DNA of 64,000 nucleotides from Bacteroidota bacterium (lineage in GTDB: Bacteria; Bacteroidota; Bacteroidia; UKL13-3). A program made the position numbers and the translations under genes. Of the stretch, positions 26,665 through 28,506 are shown piece by piece (position 1 is the stretch's first letter; every line of letters starts with the position of its first letter). The DNA is taken from the NCBI GenBank assembly GCA_947464275.1, contig CANHVU010000006.1, positions 62,001 to 126,000 on the forward strand, given 5' to 3'. A model generated the notes under the pieces. It was not told the origin of the DNA and did not search any database. It was given only the letters and a program-made list of their open reading frames with translations.

Positions 26665-26997
26665 ATAGTGAGTATAATTTTATTTTACCCAACAAACGTA
26701 CTTTCAATACCTGCGCATTAATATGACTATAGGCAAATGCTATTTTGAGAGATTTTAGCCCAAATAGTGACTAGGGTCAGTAATTGTCATGAATAAATTG
26801 ACATTTGAAATAATTATTTGCCCTCGGTTGGTTTTTTAACCAACCGAATAAGATGCTTAGAGGAACTTTCCTTGGGAAAATAGTCTCAAAAAGAGCCCAA
26901 CTGAAAAATTCAATTAGGCTTTTTGGGTTTTCAATGGTTTCGGTTCAATTGGATCTTTGCTTAGTTTTTGAAACTATTTGTTTTTATAAAGAAGATT

Positions 26998-27599
26998 TTG
27001 GCTAAAGCCAATTTGAGTTTATCATCCATCTCCACGCCCTAAAGGGCGTGGCAATTAATCCTTCCATATAGCCAAGTCAATTGGATAGGATAATTTTTTG
27101 TAGATATTACAAAAAGCAAATAAGAACAAAGCTAAATTGTTTTGAAAATGACTATTTAAAAGAATCTATTGCCGTGGCAATTAATCCTTCCATACAGCCA
27201 AGTTAATTGGATAGGATAATTTTTTATAGATATTACAAAAAACTTATAAGTACAAAGCTAAAAAATATTGAAAATAACTATTTAAAAGAATCTATTGCCG
27301 TGGCAATTAATCCTTCCATTCAGCCAAGTCAATTGGATAGGATAATTTTTTATAGCTATTACAAAAAACTTATAAGTACAAAGCAAAATAGTATTGAAAA
27401 TAACTGTTTAAAGAACCTATTGCCGCGGCAATTAATCTTTCCATACAGCCAAGTCAATTGGTTAGGATAATTTTTTATAGCTGTTACAAAAAGCAGATAA
27501 GAACAAAGCTAAATTGTTTTGAAAATGACTATTTAAAAGAATCTATTGCCGTGCCCTTTAGGGCATGGAATAAAAAAAACACCTATTGGCTTTAGCCAA
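26998..27599. repeat. Hairpin-bounded element with four tandem 126-bp repeats
   Basis: Ends are mirror images: TTGGCTAAAGCCAA (26998-27011) at the left and its reverse complement TTGGCTTTAGCCAA (27586-27599) at the right. Inside these are hairpins CCACGCCC-TAAA-GGGCGTGG (27032-27051) and CCGTGCCC-TTTA-GGGCATGG (27549-27568). Between them lie four direct repeats starting with GGCAATTAATC at 27050, 27176, 27302 and 27427 (periods 126, 126, 125). Each internal junction is a small palindrome ATTGCC-GT-GGCAAT (ATTGCCGCGGCAAT at the third). Units 1 and 4 share one variant of the 3' half and units 2 and 3 another. No transposase is present, suggesting a non-autonomous REP/BIME-like or MITE-like element. 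Confidence 0.75.
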
Positions 27600-27648: not shown

Positions 27649-27735
27649 GTCATGCTGAAAGCATCTTCTTGGCTATAAATGATTACTTGCCATTAGCCAA
27701 CTTGGTTGCCAAGTAAAGGAGATGCACTGCATGAC
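27649..27735. repeat. REP-type inverted repeat
   Basis: Left side CGTCATGC...GCATCT (27648-27666) mirrors right side AGATGC...GCATGAC (27720-27735). Nested inside are TTGGCTA / TAGCCAA (27669-27675 / 27694-27700) and ACTTGGTTGCCAAGT (27700-27714). GTCATGC...GCATC words in inverted pairs are a frequent extragenic repeat type in Bacteroidota genomes. Confidence 0.6.
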
Positions 27736-27925
27736 TTGATTTTTTGAATTATGCCCTTTAATATGGTTTGCTAAAAGAGAGCATAGTCAAATAATATCAA
27801 TAGCATTAAGCAAGCTAATGTATAAAAAATATAGTTTTTGATATTAGCACCTACAAAACAATTTTTTATTGATTTCCTTAACTTTTATATGCATGTTTAC
27901 ATCCTGATAAAAATGAGTATCACCC

Positions 27926-27996
27926 ATGACTGACAAGCATTTTTTAAAAACTATTTTTAACGAGAAAACTTTAATAAAGAAGACCTTGAAAATATT
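27926..27996 (+). pseudogene. Out-of-frame N-terminal segment of the Crp/Fnr gene
   Basis: From ATG 27926 the frame reads MTDKHFLKTIFNEKTL and stops at a TGA at 27998-28000. The N-terminus of the following regulator would be expected to read FLKTIFNE, then N-F-N-K-E-D-L-E-N-I-L-N-Q-Y. The second part is encoded here but one base out of frame, starting at about 27967. A single missing A in the run at 27964-27967 (GAGAAAACTTT) would join the two. So the gene has either a real frameshift or a sequencing error. Confidence 0.7.
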
Positions 27997-28506
27997 TTGA
28001 ATCAATACCAACGAATTGAATTTGCCAAAAACGATTTTTTAATTCAGGAAGATTCAACTGCTAATTATTACTACTTTATCGAAAGTGGTTATGTTCGCTC
28101 GTATGTAATAGATTTAGAAGGAAATGATATTAGTACTAAGTTTTTTAGTTCATCAGACATAGTAATTGATTGGCATTCGTATTTTTTAAAAACCAAATGT
28201 CGTGAAAATGTGCAAGCCATTACTGCTTGTGTGGCTTGGAAAATTACTTTCGAAAACTTTATGAAGTTGTTTAAAATAGAAGCTTTTAGAGAGGTTGGGC
28301 GTACCCGTTTGGTTAATAATTATTTTGAACTAAAAAATCATTCTATATCAATTATAGCTGACCCTGCAAAGGACAGGTATTTAAATTTACTCAAATCGAA
28401 ACCCGATATTGTTCAAAATGTACCATTGAAGCAAATTGCAACTTATTTAGGCATTACCGATACTTCATTAAGTAGGATTAGAAAAGAAATTTTAGGAGAA
28501 AAATAA
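27997..28506 (+). CDS. Crp/Fnr family transcriptional regulator (N-terminus apparently frameshifted)
   Basis: 169 residues from a TTG at 27997. The cyclic-nucleotide-binding-like beta-roll occupies about residues 1-105 (FIESGYVRSYVIDLEGNDIS is the typical central strand pair) and a C-terminal helix-turn-helix about 140-165 (VPLKQIATYLGITDTSLSRI). This is the compact Bacteroidota Crp-like class, with no Fe-S cysteines of the FNR type and no obvious cAMP contacts. The natural N-terminus seems to begin at 27926 in another frame. It overlaps the next gene by one base (TAATG). A palindrome before 29307 looks like its target. Confidence 0.85.
   Translation: MNQYQRIEFAKNDFLIQEDSTANYYYFIESGYVRSYVIDLEGNDISTKFFSSSDIVIDWHSYFLKTKCRENVQAITACVAWKITFENFMKLFKIEAFREVGRTRLVNNYFELKNHSISIIADPAKDRYLNLLKSKPDIVQNVPLKQIATYLGITDTSLSRIRKEILGEK

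Follow-up and report, generated by a model that had tools for sequence, protein, structure and literature searches.

The array of about 600 bases at positions 26998–27599 of the window (the whole 64-kb stretch of DNA that was analysed) is best explained as a non-autonomous copy within a family of dispersed repeats tied to a Y1 (HUH) transposase of the subclass 1.2 type, whose present form would reflect spread in trans, tandem duplication, loss of B hairpins and the formation of a unit mosaic; we give this reading a probability of roughly four in five. The array consists of four tandem units flanked by inward-facing, inverted double-hairpin ends, at the place and in the two-layered arrangement that a sequence-only reading of the region had proposed, and sits between ccoN and a gene for a Crp-type regulator, upstream of both of these divergent genes.

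TRF delineates the repeat at 27047–27553, with a 126-bp unit, 4.0 copies and a score of 804, and the runner-up array in the 64-kb window scores only 77. On the forward strand, core unit 1 occupies 27050–27175 (126 bp), unit 2 27176–27301 (126 bp), unit 3 27302–27426 (125 bp) and unit 4 27427–27549, with unit starts spaced by 126, 126 and 125. The second half of unit 4 is near-identical to that of unit 1, from which it departs at 2 positions, whereas the other unit pairs differ at 7–12; six of the seven columns that divide the units two against two separate 1 and 4 from 2 and 3, and all six fall within the second half. The initial impression that units 1/4 and 2/3 carry different 3' halves is thus borne out. 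Because the period of 126 is divisible by three and an 87-aa open reading frame (27207–27470) spans two units, the array could be imagined to encode a repeat protein. The period had indeed been described as keeping a frame open; this is correct across two units but not throughout, since the third and last spacing is 125, stops interrupt the other units and the longest frame ends at 87 aa. Related cores elsewhere, moreover, have indels that do not come in threes. With its frames interrupted and no Pfam match to the 87-aa product, a coding repeat was rejected, and its probability is close to nil.

Both ends of the array are composite. On the left, the outer hairpin A (TTGGCTAAAGCCAA, 26998–27011, forward strand) precedes the inner hairpin B (CCACGCCCTAAAGGGCGTGG, 27032–27051, forward strand), which is followed by the conserved tail CAATTAAT; on the right, their inverted copies B' (CCGTGCCCTTTAGGGCATGG, 27549–27568, with the foot ATTG before the hairpin) and A' (TTGGCTTTAGCCAA, 27586–27599) lie on the reverse strand. 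Hairpin B was assigned from its sequence, from covariation and from the tail profile of 63 copies, and the other three from sequence and fold, A additionally from the 3' end of tnpA in L100 and L156. The two ends are mutually inverted, with 88% identity over 24 nt for the outer arms and 77% over 44 nt for the inner arms. Folded as single-stranded DNA, the left end reaches a z of -4.4, with no shuffle equally good, and the right end a z of -2.3. On the B' strand the foot reads ATTG in the window's array and, in most cases among relatives, [AG]TTG or ATAG. Between the units, collapsed B hairpins form the internal junctions (ATTGCCGYGGCAAT), which read ATTGCCGTGGCAAT at 27168–27181 and 27294–27307 and ATTGCCGCGGCAAT at 27419–27432 (no strand assigned), in keeping with the earlier description of junctions reduced to short palindromes.

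Copies of the element are dispersed in the window's own genome and in related ones. A whole-element search of 40 relatives gave matches in 15 genomes, and the window's genome contains one further element (contig C29, 2937–3159) with a single core unit, intact ends and 82% identity. A strict two-hairpin pattern occurs at 36 places in 7 of the 10 genus genomes, for which the reversed pattern, used as a control, gave 0 places; across the family, 10 of 64 genomes contain it. Species differ in copy number, the genus genomes having between 0 and 14 double hairpins each. One-unit copies with intact B hairpins are also present in the related genome G003, and in G003 and G009 the elements are clustered, inward-facing pairs enclosing a core bounded by intact B hairpins and outward-facing pairs enclosing a short spacer. 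In the related genome G001 (contig C44; locus L099, 1370–1500), repeats of half-hairpins of ~21 bp (GGCAAATCCTAAAGAGCGC...) stand between inverted ends in place of the 126-bp core.

These dispersed copies bear directly on the idea that the array is a purely local tandem duplication, a satellite unconnected with mobile DNA, an origin to which, according to the sequence-only reading, the lack of any further copy would have pointed. The four-unit array was seen in the window's genome only, among the relatives searched, and within the genus collapsed junctions beside core units occur nowhere else (no core unit adjoins the other ATTGCCRYGGCAAT sites of G003 and G004). Against this, the window's genome and other species carry single units with the same ends elsewhere, and in relatives a transposase gene lies between these ends. 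A local satellite is largely refuted by the dispersed copies, and we consider it very improbable.

The stem of hairpin B varies among species (CCACGCCC, CCACGACC, CCCGACC, CCCCGTGC), with the partner strand changing along. The three B pairs left free by the search pattern are paired in 55, 59 and 54 of 63 copies, against shuffled expectations of 43.7, 53.9 and 26.8, and show several alternative pair types; the observed counts exceed every one of 2000 shuffles, which overstate the significance because related copies are not independent. At the level of sequence, the copies demonstrate that the B stem is maintained by compensatory changes. In most copies A and B are spaced by 19 to 25 nt, and the family tail CAATTRAT is conserved in the 63 copies.

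In two relatives, G001 and G002, the same hairpins enclose a Y1 transposase gene. A scan of a one-genome-per-species collection found 15 full-length close relatives of this protein (68–100% identical to the query, query included), mostly from Bacteroidota MAGs, with two from MAGs binned elsewhere. The 15 genes, of the MPYTK type, have the inverted order B'-A'-tnpA-A-B, with exceptions at L156, which has no upstream B, and L168, where the downstream B is broken; in most, the tnpA stop codon overlaps hairpin A. The sequence-only reading had called for a Y1 transposase with matching hairpins, and these genes provide it. The two close relatives on contigs binned to Saccharibacteria and Thermodesulfovibrionales (L161, L166) may reflect horizontal transfer or mis-binning.

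The transposase is 145 aa long and homologous to the solved TnpA of ISDra2 and IS608, and D52-H53-I54-H55 and Y113 are invariant in four aligned sequences. The sole Pfam domain found in it is Y1_Tnp (4.6e-24), and it passes the cut-off of the NCBIfam IS200 model and fails that of the REP-transposase model. Its motifs, Y-xxx-Q-xx-HH, DH[IV]H and WQ, are of the subclass 1.2 type, for which Y-xxx-Q-xx-HH is the signature (PMC6006769).

The element had been described as having no transposase, and the cognate gene is likewise missing from the genome around it: no cognate tnpA was found in the window's assembly, in which four distant or sister homologues of the transposase occur, none from the cognate group. 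The assembly is 96.8% complete in 68 contigs, so a cognate gene might lie in an unassembled part. The best match, on contig C14, was considered as the cognate tnpA and rejected as a sister gene with different flanking hairpins (AATGGGTTAAAACCCATT). Since the cognate gene is missing from the assembly, the element is non-autonomous and the array is probably a relic. A decayed tnpA adjoins a double hairpin in G001 (contig C67, L176).

The left end retains a trace of its likely source. In G002, the cognate tnpA ends in the same fifteen bases, final codons and stop included, that occupy 26991–27005 here (GAAGATTTTGGCTAA), an indication that the array ends descend from a gene-bearing copy. Reading outward, B is followed by A around the core and A by B around tnpA, which argues against the array having arisen from a tnpA copy by simple internal deletion.

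Comparison of orthologous sites is consistent with mobility. A sister species, G004, lacks the one-unit element of contig C29 at the orthologous site (27 bp versus 549 bp including the element, with flanks 90–94% identical), and the element on contig C44 of G001 is likewise absent from G008; the sites without the element in G004 and G008 also differ by extra repeat sequence around it. Given these repeats, neither comparison revealed an exact insertion opposite a clean empty site. The intergenic region of the window is a point of rearrangement relative to sister genomes, and it offers no empty site, ccoN and the Crp-type gene being on separate contigs in G003 and G004. We infer that the family moves, as neither absence amounts to a clean insertion and the window's locus is uninformative. 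A second dispersed repeat family (TTTGTCCTCGGCTTGTGCCCTCACCAATCGAATAAGGTG...), present in many genus genomes, lies on both sides of the single-unit element (L068, ~1310–1380 and ~1760–1840).

Two further features of the array's surroundings were observed. The Crp-type gene (27926–28506) has one base fewer near 27965 than in G003 and G004 (GAG-AAAAC versus GAGCAAAAC). The resulting frameshift in its first codons may stem from a sequencing error or reflect a truncated gene. The block CATCTTCTTGGCTATAAATGATTACTTGCCATTAGCCAACTTGG (window 27659–27740) is itself repeated, occurring twice on contig C39 of G003 (L194, 582–787 and 1930–2130), and a diverged copy adjoins an element on contig C43 of the same genome.

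The array's origin can be pictured as follows. The family ends are inverted double hairpins, consisting of A, about 21 nt, B and then CAATTRAT; the transposase would recognise the hairpin pair on single-stranded DNA and may cut near the foot of B ([AG]TTG / CAA[TC]), thereby spreading units in trans. A one-unit insertion, such as the one that persists on contig C29, would later have been duplicated in tandem at the window's locus. The inter-unit B hairpin ATTGCCGTGCCCTTTAGGGCGTGGCAAT could have lost its middle by slippage between two CGTG copies, yielding ATTGCCGTGGCAAT, with the third junction arising from a CGCG variant of this slippage, and recombination or conversion between units may have produced the mosaic of 1/4 and 2/3. 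The proposal that the unit was amplified in place fits these observations, with a single-unit copy in the same genome and collapsed inter-core junctions only at the array.

The junctions might instead be excision scars, left where a B'-A'-spacer (or tnpA)-A-B unit between cores was cut out and the flanks were rejoined at the B feet. Blocks of this kind do exist: G003 and G009 have B'-A'-short spacer-A-B between cores, and G001 and G007 a bare B'-A'-spacer-A-B block with a 12-bp spacer. However, one intact B separating two cores, the arrangement seen on contig C7 of G009, suffices as a precursor, the CGTG repeats account for the junction without an enzyme, and the difference between CCGTGG and CCGCGG junctions matches known B variants. 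We regard excision as possible but rather unlikely, and favour slippage within tandem duplicates of a mobile unit.

The strength of the hairpins and the position of the array between ccoN and the Crp-type regulator gene also bring to mind an RNA or regulatory structure, such as a terminator, attenuator or riboswitch, serving mainly the neighbouring genes. Lying upstream of both divergent genes, however, the array terminates neither; an Rfam scan of the whole window returned zero matches, and the array is not conserved at its locus in relatives. The core was also rejected as a structured RNA, the folds being weak and in disagreement between units (z = -2.4 and -0.8). A regulatory role as the main explanation is improbable, and mobile DNA remains the preferred reading.

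Set beside known systems, the array varies a known theme, that of the REP/TIR-associated Y1 transposases, and is not a new kind of system. It shares with IS200/IS605 elements (IS608, ISDra2), which are excised as single strands and insert 3' to a short, fixed target, an HUH Y1 transposase whose catalytic residues are His-x-His and Tyr, as well as terminal hairpins. IS200/IS605 ends are same-strand hairpins, not inverted repeats; here, by contrast, the two ends mirror each other as inverted repeats, and more units are non-autonomous than carry the gene. As in a MITE, a non-autonomous unit carries ends common to gene-bearing, putatively autonomous copies. The resemblance to REP/BIME and REPtrons (E. 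coli, Pseudomonas; TnpAREP/RAYT) is closer in form: pairs of inverted hairpins that carry a short foot, often in tandem and in mosaic arrays, and non-autonomous repeats both beside and dispersed from a Y1 transposase gene. REP sequences, however, have a GT[AG]G foot and usually over 100 copies per genome (PMC8266576, PMC6006769), whereas here the foot is mostly [AG]TTG or ATAG, copies number 0–14 per genus genome against hundreds, each end has two hairpins, the array junctions have lost theirs, and the transposase is of the subclass 1.2 type instead of REP's class 2. The earlier label of a REP/BIME-like non-autonomous mobile unit is thus right for the most part: it stands for the dispersed copies and the Y1 partner and fails for the GT[AG]G foot and the high copy number, and the movement it implies is probable from sequence comparison. 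TIRtrons/TIRYT (Di Nocera 2013, PMC3733652) likewise have a Y1 gene between non-GTAG inverted repeats, including double palindromic ones, that form small dispersed families. Most described TIRYTs belong to subclass 2.1 and have C-terminal HTH domains (PMC6006769), unlike the 145-aa protein found here, with its Y-xxx-Q-xx-HH motif and only Y1_Tnp by Pfam.

The protein agrees with subclass 1.2 Y1 transposases (Quentin 2018, PMC6006769) in its DH[IV]H, WQ and Y-xxx-Q-xx-HH motifs, its length of about 145 aa and its occurrence in Bacteroidota. As published, however, this subclass is generally without typical terminal secondary structures (PMC6006769), whereas many of the genes here are flanked by hairpins on either side. 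In a set of 51 distinct subclass-1.2-type genes (partly related and a non-random sample, so that the figures are descriptive), a perfect hairpin, defined as a stem of 7 or more within 200 bp of the gene, lies upstream of 34, downstream of 29 and on both sides of 24; in shuffled flanks, hairpins on both sides occur in 0.4%. These counts conflict with the published claim. A search of the open literature turned up no report of hairpin ends in subclass 1.2. We lean towards the view that the subclass 1.2 Y1 transposases of Bacteroidota are a large set of REP-like systems, having their own covarying single- or double-hairpin ends and dispersed non-autonomous repeats able to become tandem arrays. An unassigned branch of single-strand transposases would thereby gain recognisable DNA partners, from which candidate binding and cutting substrates can be named, and the window's array would exemplify a mobile repeat that became satellite-like, its junctions retaining hairpin feet only.

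A sister transposase, of the MPFIKV type and also represented by the gene on contig C14 of the window's genome, has a tandem array of its own in G004, with a period of 126–127 bp (L033, 865–1290; L034, 1250–2250). Its hairpins differ from those of the window's array and are retained at every junction; the period that the two arrays share is possibly a coincidence.
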